Made by a program: the position numbers and the translations under genes
The notes under the pieces: model-generated
Seen by the model: the letters and a program-made list of their open reading frames with translations, nothing else
Databases searched by the model: none
What the model was told of the DNA's origin: nothing
DNA from: Chromera velia
Taxonomy: Eukaryota > Sar > Chromeraceae
Assembly (NCBI GenBank): GCA_018398765.1
Contig: JAHBMJ010000149.1
Location: forward strand, 25,001 to 45,000
Reading direction: 5' to 3'
Length of the DNA: 20,000 bases
Part shown: one piece after another, positions 1-19,388 of the stretch
How the letters are laid out: the number at the start of each line of letters is the position of its first letter
Position numbering within the stretch: the stretch's first letter is position 1

Positions 1-632
1 TACTGAACGAATCACGGCCGGGCGCGGTCTCTCACAGTTTGTTTTTGTGCCAGACCGCGCGCGCGTTGTGTTGTTCACTTTGTGTGCAACACTGTATTGC
101 AAAAAAGCAATTGAATTTTCTCACGCATAATAATTAATTCATATATACGTATACATGCATGTACGTATACGCATATACTATTACGTGCATGCATGAAACA
201 CATGGTGCATACCACACTTGTATTGATGATGTACACAATGATCGCAGGATAGAACGTTGAGTCCTTGTGCATGAAAAGTATTGTGCTTGAGTTCTCGGTG
301 ACAGAAGACTTCACCGCCCCCTCATTTTACATGTAGTTCTCAATCGATCGAATTTGAATCGCTTGGTCCCATGCATTAGAAGGTCTTTGAATCTTCCACA
401 AAGAGAGACTGCATGCAACACCCGTTCACTAGTAAAAAGAAGTTTTGAATCCTTGATGTGCTTACTTCGACTACCATTTCAATTTTGCCGAGGCAGTCTT
501 GACCTACCGTAGAATCGACACTTTGCTGGCCTCACCGTCAACCCGAAACTCATCTCGCAGGTCATCAGAAAAAAAAACTCACCACTTTACAGCAGTGAAA
601 GATTATCTTCAGTCTGACCGTGAACTACCACA
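1..632. promoter_or_regulatory. Upstream region and probable promoter/5' UTR of the receptor gene
   Basis: No supportable gene. It should carry the promoter and 5' UTR because the start codon is at 633. It contains a GC-rich hairpin at 22-60 and an imperfect palindrome of GTATAC/ATGCAT motifs around 136-180. I cannot place a TATA box or transcription start. Confidence 0.4.
22..60. repeat. Short GC-rich inverted repeat
   Basis: Arms GCGCGGTCT (22-30) and AGACCGCGC (52-60) are perfect 9-bp complements around a 21-nt T/G-rich loop. It may belong to the end of an upstream gene; its function is unknown. Confidence 0.6.
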
Positions 633-1091
633 ATGAAATCTTCAGTTCCGATGGATCTGCTTTTCCGTCTGTCTATGGTCTTTCTCTCCCTTTCTTTCCT
701 TGGAGGACTGATGAGGACAGATGCTTACCTGCTGCCCCTACACGACACATTCTATTTCTCCCGAACAGTCACCACACCTGGATCGTACCCCGACTTCAAG
801 ATTGGGTTCGTCTGCCCCCTTACCGGGTCACGATCCACGATCGGACAGAAGATGTACAGAGGGCTGCTGCTCTGGGTGGACTATGTGAACAACAGCGAAC
901 AGAAACTGGTGGTCAACGAAAACAACTACTACACAGTCTCTCCCATCTACTCAGACAGCACATCGGACACCACGACTGCGCAAACTGTGACAAACACCAT
1001 GATAGGCACCAATAAGGTGAACGTGGTTGTTTCCTGTGCGGCTGAAGAAGTGACTAACGTTGCAACTGAAGCCTCTGGGTCAAGTATTGTG
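633..1091 (+). CDS. Receptor exon 1: signal peptide and start of flytrap domain
   Basis: Encodes residues 1-153. A hydrophobic core at about 8-26 followed by TDA-Y suggests signal peptidase cleavage near residue 31. FKIGFVCPLTG and the following helix (GQKMYRGLLLWVDYVNN) match the first strand and helix of LivJ-type binding proteins. The exon ends in phase 0 after GTG, before a GTCAGT donor; read-through hits a stop six bases later at 1098-1100. Confidence 0.8.
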
Positions 1092-1168
1092 GTCAGTTAG
1101 AAAACGAACTCTGCGAAGAGTTGGGTCCTGTCGATATACGTGTTCACTCAATAGACTCGTGCGCGTAT

Positions 1169-1200
<32 letters not shown>

Positions 1201-4200
1201 TCGCCGATTTTTCAAAAAGAGGGGGTGGAGATCACAGCCGTGCATAAATGAATTCCAACTGTCTGATTTGTTCCCCTTACCTCACACATTTCATTTCACA
1301 GATGCTGTTCAATTGTACTGAAAGTGACAGGCGAGTACAAAAAGTGGTGCTCGTCCCTTAATTGTCTACAAAATATGCGGGTCCCCTTAAATCCTCATAG
1401 AATGGTAGTTTCGCTGCGGGGTTTTCACCCTTTTTGAATGCTTGCTTCTCTTCTCCACTGCCGGTCTGCAGAGTATGCACATTCTCGGGTCTTCCGACAG
1501 TTCTCTCTGGAGCTCATCATCCAACACGTTCGCCTTTGGGGCCTCCCCACCGAACCTGGACACATTCCACTCGCTGCTCACAGACGCCCAGACGCAGGGA
1601 TACTCCAAACTTGCACTCTTGTACGCGTCTGACAAAACATCCTCAACAGACCTGTGCACAAATGCGAAGGAGTTTGCCGAATGGAGTCTGAGCATGACCA
1701 CAGCTGCCACAGGGACCTATACGGGAACATCCTACTCTACCTCGACATCTGCCTCTGCGATCTCGTCTCTCCTGCAGTCCGCCCAGTCCAACTCTGCAGA
1801 GATTCTTCTGGTCTGCAACAGCGATGATGCTGCAGGGGCAGACAGCGTGGACATCGTCAACGCGATGCAGACGTTGGGATACGATTTCAAAGCAGTGGCC
1901 TTTGTCAGTCGCACATTGTTTCTTGGTGGGAGGGGGTTACGAATAAGTGAAAAATGAAACAGAGACAGACCAAATGCACATACTGAGGGAGGACCGTGTG
2001 TCTTGATTCCTTGCACCCTCTCCTGCCGCTCTCTTTCTGTCAAAGAATATCGCTCTCCCCACATGCACCGTCCTTTTTGTTCATACATACTCCACTACAG
2101 TCTTTTGAAATTCTCTCGCTTGAGCCGCACATCTCATCTTTTGCTTCATCGGGTCTTTCATCCATTAAATGAATTTCTCCAGACGCAGGCACGCATTGGA
2201 TTTCCTAAACGCAGAAGACTCCTGATGGATGTTCTCGTAGGATAAGTTTCTGTCTGTATACAATTTCTCTGGCTGTGTTTTTCCTGCAGGCCTACAACAC
2301 CGTTTCGTTTCCTCTGACGTCCTCCGTGTCCAATTCGACGGCTGCCAGTGCGATTGCCGCCACCAGGTGGGATCCTCTCAGCAGGGGAAGCTTCGACTTT
2401 GTCTTCGGGAGCTCCAGTGGGTTCGTGACGGCATTCAAAAACATGTCAGTCAGTCAAATAGCCAAAGAGGCTTTTTAGTGGAATGGATGCGTTGGTTGAT
2501 AGAGGGTTGGATGCATGAATGGATGGGTGGACAGGAACGTGGGTGGGTAGGTAAGCGGAGGTTGCATGCTGAATGCTCAGCTTGCCTGCTGGAATTCCGG
2601 CTGTTGCATTCCTTGTCTGTTTATGCAAAGACTGCACGTGCCTACTATTCTCTTTTGCCTTCCTTGTGTTCCCGATTCCTGACATCCTTCCCTCCCTCCT
2701 TCCTTCCTCCCTTCAGGTACGGCACCGACCCGGATGAGTATGAAGCAGCAGCAGTAGGTGCGATGAACGCTCTGATGTTTGGACTTTTTAAGACGACCTC
2801 TTGGGACACCACAACCGACGAGAGCACTCGAAACTTCGCATCGAATTCCGCTCTCCTCGTGACGTCACTGGGATCGATGCGAGAGGCCTCGTTTTACGGC
2901 ACTTTGGCATTTGGACGGGACGGGGTCAATAACGGTCGTACTTACTGGCACCTTCAACAGTATGCACTTGACGGCACACGCACTACTGTACTTCCTGAGG
3001 AGGCCGCTCCTTCAGGCATTTCTCCCTCATTTCCCGCAATCTCTTGGGAAGCAAGGACAGGACAAGGGTGCTATCCGGGCACCTATTTCAATGGCACGTC
3101 ATGTGTCAATTGTCCTGCTCATCAATACTCCAACTCCTATGGAGCAACGGCCTGCTCTGACTGCCCTGTTGGCCAAGAGCAGGCATCAGAGGGTCAAACT
3201 TCCTGTAAAGAGTGCCAGAAGGGCTTTGTGAAAGGGAGTGCTTCGGGCAGTGCCTGTTCGTCATGTGGGGCTGGAACTTTCAGCCAGACTACGGGGGCGG
3301 CCTCATGCTCGTCCTGTCCCGCTGGAAGCTATCAGCCCGACGTCGGAGCAACAAACTGCATTCCTTGTCCAGCAGGTCGGCTTGCAAGCAGTTCAAGAAA
3401 GACAAAGAGAGACAATCTAGACCGTCTGGGGGGTTCTTTTGTGCAACATGCAGAGAAAATCTTTCTTGGAGTTTCTTGCTGAGCGTTTTTTTTCGATACC
3501 TGCGTTTCCCCACGCCACTCTTGTAAGCTGTGTCTTCGTGTTAATTCGTTTTGGATCCTTGTGAGAACAGCGCGGGGGGAGACCGACTCTGTCTCTGCGA
3601 TCTTTCTCTGTCGTTGTTCTCATTTTGCATTTCCGTTCTTTCCTTTTGCAGGAAGAGCACAGAGCGAAACCGGCCAATCGTTCTGTGCCCAGTGTGCGGA
3701 CGGGTTCTTTGCCTCAGGAGAGGGGAGCGTGTCGTGTTTTGAGTGCCCAAGGGGGGCGTCTTGCAGGTAGAGAGAGACCGACAGCTGAATTCCACATAAA
3801 TCAAAGATAGACAGATGAGTGCCTTCTTACACTATAATGACATGTGGACTCATATGCCTCATTTCGCTGACCAATCTGCGAGAAAAGCCAAGACAAGAAG
3901 AAGAGCCCTGCTGTAGATCTGTTTTTTATTTATCATACCTTCGGCAAATAAATAACCGTACAAAGCTGACGGACCGGTTTTGTCTTCTTGATTTATTTTT
4001 TGAATTCCGGACGGACAGTCGAGAAGCAAACTAGAACCCTGAACACACTTCAAAGAGAGGGAGCGAGACAAAGGGGGAGGGAGAAAGACAGATGTAGGAA
4101 AAGAATCGCAAGAGTCTCAAAGAGTAGCCAAGATAGATAGAACGACTCATGACCTCTTTCTCTGGCCCTGTATCTTTCTGCCCCGCTTTGCGACTCCTCT

Positions 4201-7135
4201 GCAGCAACGCTACTGAGCAAGTGACTCCTGTCGCCACGCAAGGTTACTACATGATTTTGGGTCTGAAGGCCGACGAGTTCACAGTACCGAATGTAACGGA
4301 AAGAAGGAGAAGAAGGAGGATGGACGCCATAGAGGCCAGACGAATGGATTCCACCGAGGCCTCGATTGCAGGGGGGGAGGGTGTGTCGTATCTGTTCAGA
4401 TGTTCTCGACCTGATGATTGTGTGGGAGCGAATCAATGCATTGACGGTGCGAACTCCAATTCTCTTCTCTGTCGTCGGTGTGTGTCGACGTCTTTTCGAA
4501 CGTCAGCCATCACTCCCTGCAGAGCCTGTCCTCCTATCTGGGGTGTGGCACTTCAACTGCTCGGCTGTCTGTTGGTCATGGCCTTTCTTGTCTGGCTTTT
4601 GACCTCTCTCTCAAGAGTTCTGTTTCTCGCCACAGGACCCACAACACTCAGCGCCATGTCGCCCTTCAGAGACGCACAGTGGGTGAAGCCCAAATGGTCT
4701 CTCGAACACGGAAGGGGGTGGGAGGAAGCGGGGGATGGGAGCGGGGTAGATAACGACGAAGGCCTGTACGCATATGACTTTCTCTTGGCTTCACAGCACC
4801 CTGTGCTTCTGCCAAGTCTCCGTGTGTTGGTGAATTGGTGGGAGATGACAACGGTGGCGATGGCGGTTCTCGCAGAGGTCGCTCTGCAGAGCACAGATGC
4901 GGCTGTGCAGGTGGAAGCCGCCACACGCTCGTTCATCTACGGGTTTGCAGAGTTTCTTGTCCTCCTGAACCCTTTTCGGGTCGGTTGGGTGATACATCCA
5001 TCAATACGGATCTCCTTTATTCTGATATTCTCCCTCGATGTGTTCCTTACAGGAACTCTGAGAGATGCACACACAGATATCTTTGCAAGGGATGGATGAA
5101 CGGTTTTTGAGGCCGCAAGTAGCCAATCTTCTTGTTTTTCGCATGTGTCCGCACGATGCAATCAGTACTGAAGATCACCCCGCTTATCAATGTTGCAGTC
5201 GGTGGTTGTGGATTGTCCCCTCAATTGGTTTTACATTGGAAGTGGTCTGGAAGGTTTCTTTTCTTCTTTCGTTTTCTTGTATTGTAGCTTCCTTGTGTTC
5301 TCCTCATTCCCAGCGTCCTATGTGTCTCTCAGGGTTCACTGTGTTTGAAGGTCGAATGGGTTGAAATCAATGCCACATGACATCATTGATTTTCCCACAT
5401 TTCTCTTCTCCCCTTCCCTTTGGTCTCTCCTTCCACGTGCAGACAGTTTTCCTTCTTGACTGTCTGATTGGGGATGGATCCGCGTATCCCCCCTCCTTCA
5501 TATACACGGTGATGGCAACCTGCGTCCCCGCAGTCATCGCAGCGGTCTGCTGGGCCTTCCTGTTCGTTTCATGGAGGAAAAGTGCGAAGAGTGACAGGAC
5601 AGAAAAATTACCGAAAGTTCGCATGGTGAAGCAAAAAGGCGCAGGAGGGGCACTACAAAAGGCCCCAGGCGCAGGAAGCCGTAGGAGCCCCGGCCATCAA
5701 AGAGGCAGATCCGCGCCTGCACCCGCACAGAAGGAAGAAGAGATAGAAGAGATTCCAGTCTACGCAGACCCCTACACACTCACACAACTCCCACCCGGCC
5801 CTCCTCCCGGCAGTGCGCAGAACATGTCACGCAGCATGTTCAGCGGACACAACACTGCACAGAGCCTTGCAGACCGTCTGAAAAGCAACGCCGCATTCCA
5901 ACGAGACAAGGCGGATCCCCGTGCCAGTCAGGGAGGGGCAGAAGAAGACATGCCGAGGTTGTTCTCCCCCCCTCCCCTCACACAGACACAGGCAGGAATC
6001 CGACCCTCCTCTCCAGGCACCCTCATGAGACGGAGGTCCCTCGTTGCTGCTGCTGCCGGGGACACCAACAAGACCGAGGCAGACCGTCACATATCCGGCA
6101 AGACGTCCCGACATTTCTGCGCATTCTGTGTGGTCCTGTTCTACCTATGTCAGTCAGCCAGTTGAACCAGGAACCAATGATTGTGCTGCACCGAAGACCC
6201 ATCTGTTATTCTTATCGTATGGATATTCTTCTGACCTGCGCTAAAGTTTGAGTACGTGTGTGGGTGTGTTGGACCTCAGCATCTGATGTCTTGGAATTAC
6301 ATTCCATGATTTTCTCCACATGCTTGAAGTATGACAGAATGTCTGTCCACACACACACGCACACACACACACACACACACACACTTGCAGCAGCACACAG
6401 AAGGTGCACCTGGACATCTCGTGCTACGTCTGTGTGCATATTGAAGCACGTTGACATGTATGCCTGCGAAGATGTATGTGTCCATCCCTCCTGATGCACA
6501 AATGCAGGGCACCCGAGCCTTGTCAGCTACCTCTTTGAAGTCCAGCAATGCGAATTTCTGGATGCCTGGCGGCTCCGGAGCTTCCCTGCTGTGATCTGCT
6601 ACGAGAATTCTGTGGGAGAGGATGGGAGGAGATACGACCACTTTGGCATCAGAGCAGGCAGCATTGTGGGGTTGACGCTGTGGGGGTTTTTGCTTCCGGT
6701 CTCCCTTGGGACAGTTCTTTACTTTTGGGGTCAGAGGAGGGAGTTTCGGTTTTCCAAGGACTTCCTGGGCGTCTTCTCGTTCTTCACAGGTCTGTCAGTC
6801 AGCTGACGTTAGATGTGAATGGAGAACCGTCGTTTTCCCTTTTATTAATGTACGTTTTTGAGACAGTCTGTGAAGGAGCGGGGGCGTTTTAGAAGAAGAA
6901 ACACTAAAGACAGGTGTGGGTGTGGAAGGAGGGGGGTCAGCCGAACCATGCAATTCTCTTTTCCGTTCCCACGCCTTATGTCCACGGATTTACGAGGCCG
7001 TCCCGTGCGCTGGTGCCTCCACCTCGCATCACACGTTCTTTGCTTCTACAGAAACACGCGACCGCTTTTACTTGACCTCATCGTGTGCCTCTATCTGTGT
7101 CTATCGTGTGCCTCTATCTGTGTCTATCTGTTCCC

Positions 7136-7175
<40 letters not shown>

Positions 7176-7198
7176 CCGTGTGTGTGTGTGTCTGCGTA

Positions 7199-7248
<50 letters not shown>

Positions 7249-10200
7249 CAGTGGGATACAGAGCTCAGACACTCGGCTGGGAGGCCTGGGTGATGGTCCG
7301 CAGGGCCGCTCTCCTCTGTATGCCCGTGTGGTCAGTCAGTCAGTCAATCTGCACTCACGCCTGTCCGTCTGTGTGTGCGTGCGTCAATCCGCAATACTTC
7401 TGAGAAGAGGAAGCAGTACGTCTTTCTCAGGAGTTTTTGAGTACCTCTAGGACGTCCCCTTTTTTGTTTTTTCCTCCCATCCGCCCTCTCGCTCTTCCCG
7501 AGGGCCAACGCTTCCATTCTAATGTCGTTGCTTGTGCATTGATCCTTTTGTTTCTTGTACCATCTTTAGAGTTCCCACTCAGACTGACGATTAAGAAGAC
7601 TGTCGATTGACAGAAGAGGCTCTCTTAGTCTTCTGTACAGATATCGGGCAACCTTCTGTATTATCCCTGTACATCCTTCTTTTCATCTCATAAACTCACG
7701 CTTGCAGGTTGGGCATCTCCACTCGTTTGAATCTCTACGTCCTTCTCTCGGCCCTTTTCCTGGTCGTGCACCTGATATGGAGACCCCACACTCTGGCCTT
7801 CAACAGGATGGCGGGGTTCCTCGAGGCTGTCTCCCTCGGTTCTGTCTTCCTCACCTTCCTCACTGCTAGATTCATCCACGTGCTCTTCCTCAATAGCGAC
7901 CCAGTGTTTCATCAGACACTCGCCCTGAGCCCCCTAGAGAGATATGCCTATCAAGACGCGACAACAAAGGTCTTTGTGGCAATCCTCTGTGCAGTCGCAC
8001 TCGGGGTGCAGTTCTATTTTGGTCTCATGCTCTTGTACACAGCAGTTGTGTGCAACGATCGCAGTGTGGCGATACGCACGAACTCGAAGATTTTGAAGAA
8101 CAAGAGAGTGAGGGCGGTAGTCGAGAGAACTTTCCCCCCGAATAATTTGGTGTTTTTGAATCCCGACGGGTCTCTGGACATCCATAGGCTCTCTGCTCAA
8201 GAAAGAAAGTTCCTGTCTGCCGTGCTCGGGCAGATGCTCCAAGAAGCCATGGACGTCTCAGAGAAACAAGGAATCAAAACGAAAAACCAAAGACGGGTCA
8301 GACACTCTCGTCGCGAGACGAGTGAACAGGGGGGGGATCTCCAGTCATCAGGGAGATTGGGGGGCACTTGGGGAGGGGGGATGAGAAAGAAAAAGGCGAC
8401 AAATTTGGCAGCAGTAGAGACGTTGCACTGGATGATGCGTCCTGATTTTGCTTCTGATTTGGAGCATGAGAAGAAGAAGAGGGAGAGGGAGGATGAGGAG
8501 ACAAGATTCATGCAGGCACGAAGAGCCTCTCTTGCAGCCCCTCCTGATATCCTCAAGGGGACATTGGGTGTATCAGGGTTTGATGAAAAGAACAGAGAGG
8601 TCCTCTCTCAAGAGCAAGCCGTCAAAGCGCGTCGCACCTTTTATTTGGAAGTCGTCAGAGAAGCGATCGAATTTGCTTTCGAAGAAAAGCAACGATGTTT
8701 CTTTGCCCTTCTCTCTGGAACTGAGTTCCGAGACCCTTCCCATTTCCTCACACTCACGCGTTGGATGAAGCAGAGAGCCTTGAAAAAACGATCCTTTCAC
8801 TTCAATGATGATGACGAGGCAGACCGAAATGCAGCGTTTGTGGCAGCCAACCCATGGACTGTCACAAGCCCATTCGATGCCGAGTATGAGAAGTTGAGGG
8901 GGTCAGAAGAGGGAACAAGATTGGCTGAAAGGCGTGTGGCTTTGAGGGGAAAGCTGACAATTGGATGTACAGTGGAGGAAATTGAATTTGCCCTCAGAGC
9001 CCAAGAACCCCGTCTACGTCATCTCCTCGCGACTCTCGGCATTCTCGCCAGAGGCCCAGAGGATATGTTCCCTCTTCACAACACCCAGCCAAGCAGGGGG
9101 GGAACCAGGGGGTTCAGATCGATGACAAATCTTACAGAGAGTAGAAGAGGCCTGGAGAAAGAAAAAACGCGAATGCTGATGGAATCGTTCTCCCAGTTCC
9201 CCCCCCCCGAGGCTGTAGGTCTTGCGGGTGCCAACAGAAGAGGGTCTATGACCAAGTCCATATTCGAACAAACGGCAGGCCCCCTCCCTGATGAGGGCAC
9301 AGAACCAGACGACAACATCCAACCCGTCGCTGCCACCACAGCAGCCGCTCGTTCCATGCGTGAGGTTGCAACCCCCGCATCCTCCCTACCCCCCGAACAA
9401 GCCGACCTAGACACATTCCAAGGATTCCCTCCGACAACACACCCCCCACCAGATGACCCCTTCCCTCCAGCCCCCCCCGAGGCACCAGGCCCCAACGACT
9501 CCGGTGCGTTCTTTGCCGATGAAGGTGAGAGAGGTGCATTCCAGTCGGTGGGGATGCATGAACGCGCCCTCAGTCTCAGTTTGAGTGCCTCTGGAGTCAG
9601 CTCCCTGCCCTACACCCGAGAGATGTCCGAACTCAGCAGAACTCACTCAAGAGAAGAACCCCCCGACGGACCTGCACCCCCCGCACCCGGGGTCTCTGTC
9701 AAATATTCCATCCCGGAGGCCCATATCCTCTCTCTGTCCCCCTCGGGCTCCCGCAAGGTGTCAATGCTGCCGGTAGAGACCCGACACCATGAGGAAATGG
9801 GGGAGGAGACACTCCCTCCAGGAGCTGTGCCGCTCTCTGAGGAGAAATGCCCCCCACTGCCTTGTCACTTCATTCGTTCCGACCCGAAGAGCCGTCTCCC
9901 CCCCATAGTCGAGGAAGGGCGAGTGGAGGCACTCGCAACGGAGACCCCCCTTCCTGTTGGAGGCACCCGTCTCCTCCCTCCACCCGGTTCTTCCCAGTCT
10001 CGTCTGAACGTCCCAAGAGGCAAAACAATAAACCCGAGTCAACGTGCAGCGCAGAAGGAGAGTGCAGGTCCAAAGCGGCCACCTGCAGCTCCCCTGTCGA
10101 GCACTGTGCAACAATCCCAAACGTCACGTATCCAGCATCCTCGACCACGAGACAGAAATGCAAGTGAACGTCTCCCAAGTAACGAAGGACCCTCAAAAGA

Positions 10201-11452
10201 CCGGAATGCGAATTCTCTTGGATCTCCAACTTTCATGACCCCTTCGCAGCCACGCGATACCTCCCCGCCCTTACCTCCTTCCCGCCTTCCCCCTTCGCTC
10301 CTTTCCGGAATCCACCACAACCAGCCAGCAGCGCCTCCCCTGATAGTCAAGCCCCCTCCTCCTTTCCGCAGGGTGAGTGCAGTCGAAACTTCTCCCCTTG
10401 CACTAGCAGAGGAGAGGGCTCCCAAGCCTCCTACCACCGAAACCGCCCCAGCACCTGCCCCCCCAGAGAGCGAGCCCACTGCCTTCCTCATCATGCGGGG
10501 CGCCTCCACACAGCCGTTGAATTGCTTTCCCGAGTCACGTGCGTCTGTAGGATCTTCAGAAGGCACACCAAACGGTAACAGAAAAACAACAGTGCGCATC
10601 GTGGACAAAAATTCAGATGCAAGGCTGTCGGGTGACCCTCCTGTTTTTGACGTTAACGGGAGGGAGCCCTCGGGTGATTGGTCTCTTCAAGAGCATTTCT
10701 CTGCGACCGAGTCATGGAATCTGCAGCATAACAGAGGCGTTGCCCCCTCAGTCTGCGGATGTTGCAGAGCACGCGCTGGGCTCTCCCCCACGTCCTGTGT
10801 TTTGATGCCCGGACAAGGGAGAGGAGGTGGCAGTCCTGTTCTGAATCAAGGCAGTCAGCAGAACCCCGCGGGGGGATTGCAGGGGGGAAGGAAAAAGACC
10901 TCCTTCGACCTTGCATATGAGCCGAAGAGGACGACTGCCGCAGGGCACTTCCGCCCTGTGCATGAATCAGAAGAGCCCCCCCAGGGCGCGCGGAGTAGGC
11001 CTCGACGGGAGGAAAGCGTCAGGGGTGACTCGAGAAGGGGGGACAGCGTCAGGGGTGACTCGAGAAGGGGGGACAGCGTCAGGGGTTACTCAAGAAGGGA
11101 GGAAAGTCTTAGGGGTGACTCGAGAAGGGGAGACAGCGTGAGTGGTGACTCGAGAAGGGGGGACAGCGTCAGGAGTCACTCGAGAGAGGACGTTATTGAC
11201 AGCAGGGGTGATCGGATGTCTCTCCTGTCTCATAGCTCGCAGCAGCTCCCGCCTCCAAGTCGAAGCCGCGAGGGTCAGATGCTCGAGTCGAGGATGACAG
11301 TTGGAAGGTCAACGAGGCAGTCAGAGACGGGGAGGGGGTCGGTCACTGCCACGTTGACAGAGACGTCGTCATACTCCCAGGTTACAACATCCAACGAGAG
11401 GAGATTGAGCTCTTTAAGAGAAAACGCTCCGCCCTTCACTGGTTTCCGATAG
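633..11452 (+). CDS. Multi-exon surface receptor: flytrap ligand-binding domain, cysteine-rich repeats, multi-pass membrane block, long disordered tail
   Basis: Join of exons 633-1091, 1472-1903, 2290-2444, 2717-3375, 3652-3766, 4205-4979, 5443-6148, 6508-6789, 7252-7330 and 7708-11452: 7407 nt, 2468 residues. Every junction is GT-AG and phase-consistent. Residues 1-31 look like a signal peptide. Residues about 55-460 read as a type-1 periplasmic-binding/ANF-receptor fold (FKIGFVCPLTG at 55-65). About eight CxxC modules lie at 467-607, and a further Cys cluster precedes the first membrane segment at 718. Eight to ten hydrophobic segments fill 718-1336, with a loop of about 180 residues at 908-1089. 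The tail (1337-2468) is Pro/Ser/Arg-rich. Known of such families: flytrap domains bind amino acids or small ligands, and GCC2/GCC3 ephrin-receptor-like repeats are extracellular linkers. Inference: a plasma-membrane chemosensor. The ligand and downstream partner cannot be read. The ATG at 633 has A at -3; Met7 is a weaker alternative. The exact ends of membrane segments are uncertain. Confidence 0.82.
1167..1202 (+). repeat. (TTTC)n microsatellite in intron 1
   Basis: About nine uninterrupted TTTC units. They lie inside intron 1, well upstream of its acceptor. Confidence 0.9.
1472..1903 (+). CDS. Receptor exon 2: flytrap domain, first lobe to hinge
   Basis: Encodes residues 154-297, beginning SMHILGSS directly after a CTGCAG acceptor. 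It contains the alternating strand/helix pattern expected of the fold (KLALLYASD, then AEILLVCNSDDAAGADSVDIVNAMQTLGYDFKA as strand and helix). It ends phase 0 before GTCAGT at 1904. The exon is 432 nt with phase 0 at both ends, so skipping it would not shift the frame. Confidence 0.8.
2290..2444 (+). CDS. Receptor exon 3: flytrap domain, middle
   Basis: Encodes residues 298-349 from AYNTVSFPL through FVTAFKNM. Acceptor CTGCAG at 2284-2289; donor GTCAGT at 2445, phase 2. The Met codon is split AT/G across intron 3 and completed by the first base of exon 4, which fixes both sites. Confidence 0.8.
2717..3375 (+). CDS. Receptor exon 4: end of flytrap domain and most of the cysteine-rich repeats
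   Basis: Encodes residues 349-569. MYGTDPDEYEAAAVGAMNAL and the part up to about 460 complete the binding domain. From Cys467 a series of modules of about 16-17 residues follows, each of the form C-x2-C-P-x-G-x-(Y/F)-...-G-x-x-x-C (for example CPAGSYQPDVGATNC). This spacing is that of the GCC2/GCC3 ephrin-receptor-like repeat. The exon ends phase 1 after CPAG, before a GTCGGC donor. Confidence 0.8.
3652..3766 (+). CDS. Receptor exon 5: last cysteine modules
   Basis: Encodes about 38 residues, including SFCAQCADGFF and FECPRGASC, which continue the repeat from exon 4 across a phase-1 junction (CPAG then RAQSETGQ). Acceptor TTGCAG. The donor GTAGAG at 3767 is the only one of the nine with A at +3. 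Read-through meets TAG at once. Confidence 0.78.
4205..4979 (+). CDS. Receptor exon 6: juxtamembrane cysteines and first membrane segments
   Basis: Encodes residues 607-865. An Arg-rich stretch (ERRRRRRMD) is followed by a Cys cluster (DDCVGANQC, CRRC, CRACP) that ends at 715. Membrane segment 1 is at 718-748 (IWGVALQLLGCLLVMAFLVW), segment 2 near 809-834, and segment 3 begins at 850 (FIYGFAEFLVLLNPFR). The exon ends phase 0 at CGG before GTCGGT. Reading on in frame, the ORF stays open to 5099 but loses the membrane pattern. Confidence 0.78.
5443..6148 (+). CDS. Receptor exon 7: membrane segments 3-5 and large intracellular-type loop
   Basis: Encodes residues 866-1101. TVFLLDCLI completes the segment begun in exon 6, and a further span lies at 883-910. 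Residues 908-1089 form a basic, Pro/Gly/Ser-rich loop without hydrophobic runs. It contains an R-R-R-S site at 1061-1064 that fits the PKA-type RRxS pattern (pattern match only). FCAFCVVLFYL starts the next span. It ends phase 1 before GTCAGT, giving a Trp codon split T/GG. Confidence 0.78.
6348..6384 (+). repeat. (CA)n microsatellite in intron 7
   Basis: CA repeat with one CG interruption near 6358, about 125 nt upstream of the exon 8 acceptor. Confidence 0.9.
6508..6789 (+). CDS. Receptor exon 8: membrane segments, skippable in frame
   Basis: Encodes residues 1101-1194, beginning WHPSLVSYLFEVQQC. A strong membrane span lies at about 1150-1175 (SIVGLTLWGFLLPVSLGTVLYF). The length is 282 nt (94 codons) with phase 1 at both ends. 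Acceptor ATGCAG; donor GTCTGT at 6790. A second donor-like GTCAGT four bases downstream would shift the frame. Confidence 0.78.
7138..7250 (+). repeat. Interrupted (TG)n microsatellite in intron 8
   Basis: Two long TG tracts (about 7138-7172 and 7202-7244) are joined by TATCCGTG/TCTGCG interruptions. The second runs into the exon 9 acceptor and takes the place of a normal pyrimidine tract. Confidence 0.9.
7252..7330 (+). CDS. Receptor exon 9: short exon in the membrane block
   Basis: 79 nt encoding VGYRAQTLGWEAWVMVRRAALLCMPVW across its junctions. The acceptor GTGCAG sits directly after a long TG microsatellite. The Trp codon is split TG/G with exon 10, which selects the GTCAGT donor at 7331 over the GTATGC at 7318; the latter would give the wrong phase. 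Confidence 0.75.
7708..11452 (+). CDS. Receptor exon 10: last membrane segments and disordered cytoplasmic-type tail
   Basis: 3745 nt. The final spans lie at about 1227-1246 (LNLYVLLSALFLVVHLIW), 1256-1283 and 1307-1336. The rest, about 1130 residues, is low in hydrophobic clusters and rich in Pro, Ser, Arg and Glu. It holds a charged helix-like patch near 1473-1493 (EKKKREREDEETRF) next to an RRAS site, long proline-rich stretches between about 1770 and 2170, and a tandem repeat near 2320-2385. Stop TAG at 11450-11452. No catalytic motif of a kinase or cyclase is visible in the tail. Confidence 0.82.
11011..11190 (+). repeat. 30-bp tandem repeat coding for RRGDSVRGDS-type decapeptides
   Basis: About six copies of a 30-bp unit near the end of exon 10. 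Each gives ten residues (consensus RRGDSVRGDS, with variants REES, RGYS, VSGD, VRSHS). The unit is a multiple of three, so copy-number change would keep the frame. It is Arg/Ser/Asp-rich and probably disordered. Confidence 0.88.
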
Positions 11453-12290: not shown

Positions 12291-12700
12291 TCACACTGCA
12301 ACGATCACACCAGTCTTCTTGTCAAAAAAAAACATATGTTTTGCGTCCTCTGCGATTGTGGGCTTCCCATCTACCCAGGTAAGACGGACTTGGGGAATGA
12401 ACCACAGAACCTTGCCGAATTTAGCAGAGTGCGCAGCAATGGCACCTTCATCAGAGCTATTAATCAGCTGGTCCCCGCCTGCAAAATACATAACCCCGTC
12501 CTTGTAGAACTTTGAATGCATCCCACCCCTCCTCGAGGGTCTCGGCTACATCTGCAAGGAGGGTCTGTATATTGTCGTCCTCGATTTTTTGTCCTCCTTA
12601 TCCTCGTCTCCTTCTTTCTCATCCTCCTCATCTTCATCTTCTTCATCAGATGTGCAAGACTGTTCATCCTCATTCTTGAAGCCAGAACGGGCTTGCAAGT
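12291..12700 (-). pseudogene. Decayed coding stretch, family not recognised
   Basis: On the minus strand, 12521-12291 reads as a globular-looking C-terminal piece (for example LTWVDGKPTIAEDAKHMFFF) ending in a TGA stop at 12293-12291. Upstream, in other frames, lie an acidic run (DEEDEDEEDEKEGDEDKEDKK, about 12645-12595) and NIQTLLADVAETLEEGWDAF (about 12575-12515). At least two frame changes are needed to read through. The composition is more protein-like than the opposite strand. It may be a degraded transposon ORF or a retro-copied gene. Alternatively, TTTTGCAG on the minus strand near 12482 could be a splice acceptor. Confidence 0.4.
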
Positions 12701-14589: not shown

Positions 14590-15265
14590 CCCTCTTTGCC
14601 CCGGAAGTTCCCCCCTTGGCCCCCTCCTCCCCCCTCATGCTGATCAAAGAAAGCCTTAGGATGACCAATGGCATGGGAGCCCCCTTCTTGCCCCCCGCGC
14701 TGATCAGAAAAAGGATAAACATAGGATCCCCCTCCTCCCCCGTCCCCCCTCCCCCGCACTGATCAGAGAAAGGATGACCATAGGAGCCCCCTCCTCGCCC
14801 CCCGCACTGATCAAAGAAAGGATGAACATAGAACCCCCTTCCTCCCCCCCCGTGCTGATCAGAGAAAGGACGACGATGGAACCCCCCTCCTTGCCCCCCA
14901 CGCTGATCACAGAAAGAACGAATATAGGACCTCCCTCCTCCCCCCTGTGCTGATCAGAAAAAAGAAAAAGGACGAACATAGGACCCCCTTCCTCCCCCCC
15001 TGCGCTGATCAAAGAAAGGACGACCAATGGCATGGGAGCCCCTTCCTCCTCCCCCGCGCTGATCAGAGAAAGGACGACCAATGGCCAATGCTAGCTAATG
15101 GTATGGGACCTCCTCCTCCCCCTCCGCGCTGATCAGAGAAAGGACAACCATGGGAGCCCCCTCCTCACCCTCCGCGCTAATCTGAGAAAGGACAAACACA
15201 GGAACCCCTTCCTTGCCTCCTGTACTGATTAGAGAAAGGACGAACACAGGACTCTCCATCGTTCC
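14590..15265. repeat. Minisatellite, basic period 48 bp
   Basis: About 12 degenerate units, each with CTGATCAGAGAAAGGACGA and then a G/A spacer and C/T-rich block. CTGATC starts near 14640, 14700, 14759, 14807, 14855, 14903, 14950, 15005, 15059, 15129, 15177 and 15225. Five or six spacings are 47-48 bp; the others (54-70 bp) carry an inserted AATGGCATGG-like segment. Because 48 is a multiple of three, the minus strand stays open for long stretches and yields repeats like VLSLISAGGEEGAP. I treat these as by-products of the repeat, not a protein. Confidence 0.85.
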
Positions 15266-17798: not shown

Positions 17799-18008
17799 AT
17801 GGCTTGCTTAGTCAGACATACAAACTCCCAGTAAAATGCTATGAAACTACTAGGTAGATTAGCGAACATGCCTAGTAGACCGGGAGGTCTTCTAGGCAGT
17901 CTACCTGGGGTCTACCAAGCAAGTGCCTAGTGACTCCTAGGGAGCTACCAGGCAAACACTAAAACATTCCTAGGCACCATCTAGGTAAGTTCCTATCCTA
18001 TCCTAAGC
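17799..18008 (+). repeat. Left terminal inverted repeat
   Basis: Contains seven CTAGG/CCTAG motifs at roughly 10-50-nt spacing and ends in CCATCTAGGTAAGTTCC..., which recurs in inverse at 19201-19232. Confidence 0.65.
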
Positions 18009-18850: not shown

Positions 18851-19200
18851 CCTAATACTAAGCTAATAGGAGGATATACCCCTATAAGCTTCCCACATCA
18901 AAGCGCTCAAAGCGGCTTTGCCAGAGTTTCATCTTACAAGATGGTCCGCTGTTACTCGGTTTTTAGAAAGCATGGAAACCCTAACAGAGGCTAATAAGGT
19001 GCTGTTCAGCTCTCCTGAATACTACAAGTCAGAGCTTCTCGATGAAAGAGCAGGGGCAGAGCGAGATGAAGATATGCCTAACCGAGCGCGGGCATGACAT
19101 TCCTGTAAATATTCATCAATTAAATACTTTTACTTACATTTTTAAAGTTGAAAACTCAGCTAATGTTGTCTAGAAAAACTGAAGATGTTGCTAAGAGACT

Positions 19201-19388
19201 GCCTAAGATAAGATAGGAACTTACCTAGATGGTACCTAGAGTCTACTAGGCACTTGCCCGGGAGACCCCTAGGGTTCACCAGGCATGTACCCTAAATCTC
19301 CTAGGCATTCCTTCGAATATACCCAGACTACCCTAGGGTTGTCCAAGCAGTATTCCAAAGAATTTATATGTCTGACTAGGCAAGCCAT
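19201..19388 (-). repeat. Right terminal inverted repeat
   Basis: Inverse partner of 17799-18008. It carries six CCTAG/CTAGG motifs and ends in TGACTAGGCAAGCCAT. Confidence 0.65.

Follow-up and report, generated by a model that had tools for sequence, protein, structure and literature searches.

The DNA analysed here (the window) is a stretch of 20,000 nucleotides from Chromera velia, taken from contig JAHBMJ010000149.1 of assembly GCA_018398765.1 (positions 25,001 to 45,000 of the forward strand). One gene in it is convincing; it runs from 633 to 11452 on the + strand. On a single open gene model the predicted protein starts with a flytrap and eight cysteine modules, which are followed by a seven-cysteine piece, then by a polytopic membrane block and finally by a low-complexity tail. 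The coordinates of these parts and of the exons that encode them are collected in Table 1.

Gene model

The gene was pieced together manually, guided by open frames and splice sites; the resulting model has 11 exons and encodes 2,485 residues uninterrupted by a stop. The ends agree with those of an earlier description of the locus made from the sequence alone (the original prediction), i.e. an ATG begins at 633 and a TAG occupies 11450-11452. Retention of any one of the 10 introns would lead to an in-frame stop. Donors start with GTC in 8 of the 10 introns (GTCAGT in 5 of them) and acceptors end with GCAG in 8. When codon bias is trained on exon 11, the chosen frame scores above the two alternative frames in 7 of the 10 remaining exons; exons 5, 7 and 9 are without such support. 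The splice between exons 4 and 5 is supported by the 17-residue register of the cysteine modules, which is unbroken over the junction.

Six variants were tried for the join of exons 6 and 8 (4910 to 5447): one includes a micro-exon (5199-5253), one extends exon 6 to 5039, and four more do without the micro-exon. The frame is kept in all six and codon bias is indecisive. The variants alter only residues 842-884 or thereabouts, so the choice affects no more than two of the weaker segments and the overall length of the protein (2,445 to 2,488 residues). We infer that the whole locus is read as one transcript.

Two features of the introns are recorded for their own sake. The introns that start with GTCAGT begin at 1092, 1904, 2445, 6149 and 7331, and some of them carry extra copies of CAGT, which makes for an unusual donor consensus. 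Runs of CA and TG are found within introns 8 and 9 (6348-6384 and 7139-7248), and the TG run stops just 5' of the exon 10 acceptor.

Table 1. Parts of the predicted receptor gene, with positions in the window
Feature	Position	Strand	Content	Basis or remark
Exon 1	633..1091	+	start codon, signal peptide (residues ~1-31), start of flytrap	open frame, donor GTCAGT
Exon 2	1472..1903	+	middle of flytrap, residues 154-297	gene model, Pfam
Exon 3	2290..2444	+	further part of flytrap	gene model, splice check
Exon 4	2717..3375	+	end of flytrap, cysteine modules 1-6	gene model, Pfam, CxxC spacing
Exon 5	3652..3766	+	final two cysteine modules	17-residue register; codon bias not in favour
Exon 6	4205..4979	+	polybasic stretch, seven-cysteine juxtamembrane segment, first span(s)	3' end 4910 to 5039 by variant
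Exon 7, candidate micro-exon	5199..5253	+		uncertain; skipped in five variants, codon bias indecisive
Exon 8	5447..6148 (start 5443 without micro-exon)	+	span 903-926, 180-residue loop	
Exon 9	6508..6789	+	remainder of span 1107-1127, span 1167-1190, two-cysteine loop between them	codon bias not in favour
Exon 10	7252..7330	+	portion of a weaker hydrophobic segment	gene model, hydrophobicity
Exon 11	7708..11452	+	final three spans, long tail to the stop	1,252-codon stop-to-stop frame
Peripla_BP_6 flytrap	798..2831 (spliced span)	+	residues 56-387	PF13458, bacterial profile
Eight cysteine modules	3069..3764 (spliced span)	+	residues 467-606	PF07699, 17-residue period
Juxtamembrane seven-cysteine segment	4401..4529	+	residues 673-715	weak DUF7630 match
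Membrane block	4542..8050 (spliced span)	+	residues 720-1352	hydrophobicity, four scales
Hydrophilic loop	5575..6114	+	residues 927-1106 (180)	no segment on any of four scales
Tail	8051..11449	+	residues 1353-2485 (1,133); Ser/Arg/Pro-rich, low-complexity	composition of residues 1376-2485
30-base tandem repeat	11007..11185	+	six copies, encoding an Arg/Asp/Ser-rich repeat of the tail	

Extracellular region

The protein begins with a hydrophobic peak at residues 9-27, in keeping with the signal peptide that was otherwise judged by eye and that the original prediction also names. Pfam then matches residues 56-387 to Peripla_BP_6 (PF13458) with an E-value of 9.9e-19 and 68.6 bits (cut-off 31.7). 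The match covers positions 3-305 of the 343 in the profile, and the domain probably extends to about residue 460, i.e. to position 3050. A second, Pfam-independent profile was made of 30 bacterial rows, namely LivJ and LivK of E. coli and open reading frames from 27 loci (L083-L109). It matches residues 1-720 with an E-value of 8e-10 (the search space being one sequence) and 24.4 bits; when residues 1-470 were shuffled 50 times, no copy was reported. When the flytrap is aligned to the bacterial profile with hhalign, the alignment spans almost the full length of both, with 11-12% identity and a probability of 87-91.

Pairwise searches with the flytrap returned no match in plasmids (E-value 1e-3) and, among PDB sequences, five chance rows with a best E-value of 0.42; a pairwise search of 56 bacterial genomes found no relative, a blank that by itself shows nothing without a known match. 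As the pairwise searches came back empty, the flytrap is far from the bacterial sequences that were searched. Prokaryote genomes and viral contigs, in which relatives were also sought, yielded none. Exon 2 alone (144 residues) was also modelled from its single sequence, giving strands that alternate with helices at low confidence (mean predicted local distance difference test score, pLDDT, 48.5). The N-terminal domain of AMPA receptors has the type-1 binding fold, and 12 chains of these receptors, either that domain or the complete chain, stand among the best 50 of the 786 rows that Foldseek gave for this model, with E-values of at least 0.096 and a root-mean-square deviation of about 16. None of the 786 rows reached an E-value of 0.001, and the top row was a clamp loader (0.047). 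The assignment of the flytrap is based on the profile matches, and the exon-2 fold result speaks neither for nor against it. Judged by these matches, the domain is a predicted type-1 periplasmic-binding domain of the LivJ-like, bacterial-type Peripla_BP_6 family. The original prediction had called it LivJ/ANF-type; the LivJ-like part of this name agrees with the matches, and the ANF_receptor family is unlisted by Pfam up to an E-value of 10.

The ligand is a separate matter. Ser79, Ala100 and Thr102 of LivJ, which we take to be positions of the amino-acid pocket, correspond to Glu, Gly and Ser in an ungapped reading of the HMMER alignment; hhalign places this stretch differently. An amino-acid ligand is possible and is not favoured by the pocket residues, and the earlier call of a nutrient or amino-acid sensor finds no backing at these positions.

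The cysteine modules belong to Ephrin_rec_like (PF07699, formerly GCC2_GCC3; E-value 1.2e-19 over four stretches), in line with the linker of about eight GCC2/GCC3-like modules that had been described. There are eight CxxC pairs, whose first cysteines are residues 478, 495, 512, 529, 546, 563, 580 and 597, at a spacing of exactly 17 residues. In 2,000 shuffles the mean number of CxxC pairs was 2.0 and the maximum 7. The region of the cysteine modules and the juxtamembrane segment was also compared to PHROGs, with no match at an E-value of 0.01. Between the modules and the juxtamembrane piece lies a run of six arginines (residues 640-645, positions 4302-4319), a possible site for proprotein-convertase-like cleavage in the ectodomain.

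Membrane block and cytosolic tail

Hydrophobic segments were called on four scales, with thresholds that we set ourselves and that are lenient. The four scales give 10, 7, 11 and 10 segments in the membrane block, so the eight to ten of the original prediction are about right. Seven segments are common to all scales (residues ~720-742, 903-926, 1107-1127, 1167-1190, 1242-1263, 1272-1299 and 1322-1352), and weaker ones, seen on some scales only, lie near 801-841, 850-869, 873-891 and 1203-1241. The hydrophilic loop that follows span 903-926 has the length that was first estimated, about 180 residues, and six Lys or Arg residues fall within the 15 residues after that span. An orientation with the N-terminus outside and the C-terminus inside is consistent with the signal peptide, the basic loop and the basic tail. 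Because the signal-peptide end would be outside and the Lys/Arg-rich loop and tail inside, two spans are required in addition to the seven; we infer one before loop 927-1106 and another near 1221-1241, for a total of nine.

The tail is, as had been noted, longer than 1100 residues. Pfam lists one chance-level row for the entire tail, with an E-value of 0.034 that is under its cut-off. The 30-base repeat within the tail is likely to be variable in length.

Remainder of the window

No tRNA and no Rfam family was found in the window. Between 12000 and 20000, 9 of the 23 frames of at least 80 codons (one of them partial) were compared to Pfam, and no row was over its cut-off. An 84-codon frame on the - strand (12291-12545) looks protein-like by eye and has no Pfam match up to an E-value of 10. 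Imperfect C-rich tandem repeats with a unit of about 48 bases are present outside the gene at 14672-15246, and near 17850-18000 and 19190-19330 there are short stretches rich in CTAGG that by eye resemble a repeat family.

Interpretation and alternatives

We interpret the product as one CRMP-like receptor at the cell surface with a bacterial-type flytrap as its head, and we put the probability of this reading at roughly 0.55. CRMPs are the cysteine repeat modular proteins found in apicomplexans and ciliates. They are described as proteins with Ephrin-receptor-like and EGF-like domains and nine spans, whose conserved core consists of two EGF-like domains and the spans and whose structure has not been solved (PMC9815656); nine spans are likewise given for the CRMPs of Toxoplasma and Plasmodium (PMC9670195). 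Chromera velia is reported to have many diverse CRMPs, and homologues in Dictyostelium are also cited (PMC9815656). In the protein studied here the Ephrin-receptor-like ectodomain modules are present (eight modules, PF07699 E-value 1.2e-19). Before the spans, where CRMPs have two EGF-like domains, there are seven cysteines at residues 673-715 with a weak match to DUF7630, and against about nine spans we find seven shared segments, or 7 to 11 depending on the scale. The closeness of this layout to that of CRMPs was overlooked in the original prediction.

Several results weigh against this interpretation. The count of spans is soft, as one scale gives just the seven shared segments in the block, while on two scales the ectodomain too contains segments (four and one). 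The number itself is not constant among CRMPs, since those of Tetrahymena have five spans (PMC9670195). No EGF-like model is listed by Pfam up to an E-value of 10. DUF7630 aligns to residues 673-715 alone with an E-value of 0.016 (positions 4-45 of 45), which is weak and under the curated cut-off, and in a longer query its E-value is 2.1, likewise under the cut-off. The same model reaches an E-value of 1 or less in 8 of 14 control genomes, all eight of them prokaryotes, and is over the cut-off in none; because the control genomes also match at this level, we give the DUF7630 match little weight. The membrane block obtained only two chance-level Pfam rows up to an E-value of 10 (0.062 and 0.67, both unrelated short families); it had no match to PDB sequences in a search that mostly excluded the loop and no relative in viral contigs, and a query of cysteine modules plus block found no relative in phages at an E-value of 1. 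As to the literature, CRMPs are termed apicomplexan-specific in spite of the Chromera CRMPs and Dictyostelium homologues cited in the same paper (PMC9815656), and their described head domains are Kringle, MAR, C-type lectin and others, a flytrap being unmentioned in the available portions of PMC9815656 and PMC9670195. In the literature searched, which covered few subscription journals, we found no flytrap on a CRMP. Finally, the putative kinship with CRMPs is argued from architecture.

The protein could instead be a true but divergent class C G protein-coupled receptor (GPCR), with a seven-span core of the glutamate-receptor type, Ephrin_rec_like modules replacing NCD3G, and the weaker segments serving as loops or re-entrant pieces. 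Exactly seven segments are common to the four scales, one of which gives only these in the block, and seven spans would place the N-terminus outside and the C-terminus inside just as well. In non-metazoan opisthokonts, receptors of the glutamate type carry Ephrin_rec_like and ANF domains, and NCD3G is missing from GABA-B receptors (PMC12716839). We nevertheless consider a class C receptor unlikely, for 7tm_3, NCD3G and ANF_receptor are all unlisted by Pfam up to an E-value of 10 (HMMER filters can hide weak matches). In particular, the seven-span domain 7tm_3 is absent from the list for the 665-residue block, which is the result of a filtered search and not proof; it agrees with the earlier remark that the membrane block differs from that of class C. 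Nor does the usual compact core accommodate the loop of 180 residues that follows the second shared segment.

We see a small chance that the gene encodes a ligand-gated channel, in which flytrap and cysteine rod would gate a TRP-like or other channel built from the last spans. A polytopic block with a long tail would suit a channel, and GCC2/GCC3 modules are found together with TRP-like C-termini in protist proteins. Against it, the two chance rows mentioned are all that Pfam offers for the block up to an E-value of 10, with no channel family among them, and PDB sequences give no match. A new, unrelated receptor family, formed when a private membrane block became linked to a flytrap and cysteine modules, is distinctly improbable. 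The block has no meaningful match in Pfam, PDB sequences, viral contigs, phages or NCBIfam (in the last a single chance row, E-value 0.39); but such blanks say little because the eukaryotic proteins covered were those in PDB and the Pfam models only, and the architecture agrees with that of CRMPs on several points. That two adjacent genes, one for flytrap and cysteine modules and one for a membrane protein with its tail, were read as one is very improbable: the locus is known from DNA alone and codon bias gives no backing to the frame used for exons 5, 7 and 9, but exon 4 by itself links the flytrap to the cysteine modules, exon 6 by itself holds both the juxtamembrane cysteines and the first span, the 17-residue register spans the exon 4/5 junction and the frame is kept across ten introns.

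Returning to the CRMP-like receptor, we tentatively propose, at somewhat less than even odds, that a CRMP-type receptor of nine spans gained a bacterial-type flytrap, reached the class C design independently and has as its stimulus a small molecule in solution, not a surface. The phrase 'independently assembled', used of the receptor at the outset, fits, since the flytrap matches Peripla_BP_6 whereas ANF_receptor is unlisted. In such a receptor the flytrap would close upon a small solute, the cysteine rod would relay the closure to the membrane block, and the block, with about nine spans and its N-terminus out and C-terminus in, would change state. The tail and the 180-residue loop might then recruit cytosolic signalling proteins or be modified by them. 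CRMPs are proposed to time the firing of secretory organelles in apicomplexans, as argued from domains, location and loss of function (PMC9815656, PMC9670195), and secretion might, by analogy only to the Toxoplasma and Tetrahymena CRMPs, be under the control of a cascade that this receptor sets off. If the proposal is true, a relative of the CRMPs whose head is recognisably a small-molecule binder would provide a handle, as its flytrap can be produced by itself for ligand screens, and the response of the membrane block to ligand binding would become a question that can be asked. It would also mean a second origin of the layout of flytrap, rod and membrane block.

Comparison with known systems

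It is useful to compare the predicted receptor with the systems that it resembles in one part or another. Firstly, bacterial LivJ, LivK and other Peripla_BP_6 proteins share with it one domain family that is colinear across the domain; they differ in that the identity is 11-12% in the profile alignment, that the LivJ pocket residues are mostly changed in the ungapped reading of the HMMER alignment, and that the domain is here fused to a membrane protein. Secondly, the CAST multi-domain proteins of chromerids and Oxytricha also show a cysteine-rich ectodomain in chromerid surface proteins (PMC4501334). They have, in contrast, a single span and a coiled-coil cytoplasmic region, and a flytrap is unmentioned for them in the portions available; the extracellular-protein appendix of the same chromerid genome paper, so far as available, mentions neither CRMPs nor flytraps.

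Thirdly, the order of flytrap, connector, membrane block and cytosolic tail is that of the class C GPCRs (mGluR, GABA-B, CaSR). Unlike them, the present protein is without detected 7tm_3, NCD3G and ANF_receptor domains, its connector consists of eight 17-residue Ephrin_rec_like modules, and a 180-residue loop lies in its membrane block. The glutamate-type seven-span receptors of animal relatives come close in the name of the linker domain, Ephrin_rec_like; those receptors were gathered by their seven-span domain (PMC12716839), a domain undetected here.

The closest likeness in layout is to the CRMPs (TgCRMPa/b, PfCRMP1-4, Tetrahymena CRMP1/2), in which a cysteine-rich ectodomain of Ephrin-receptor-like and EGF-like kind adjoins a multi-span block (PMC9815656, PMC9670195). 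The topology of TgCRMPa was tested, with the N-terminus found outside and the C-terminus in the cytosol, and CRMPs are regarded as GPCR-like by PANTHER and not as bona fide GPCRs (PMC9670195). They are proposed to be sensors of host contact that trigger rhoptry discharge (PMC9670195), and the predicted orientation and the putative sensor role of the protein described here would be alike. The difference is at the head, where a LivJ-type flytrap takes the place of the Kringle, MAR or lectin domains. Overall, the layout appears nearer to that of the apicomplexan CRMP sensors than to that of an animal class C GPCR.

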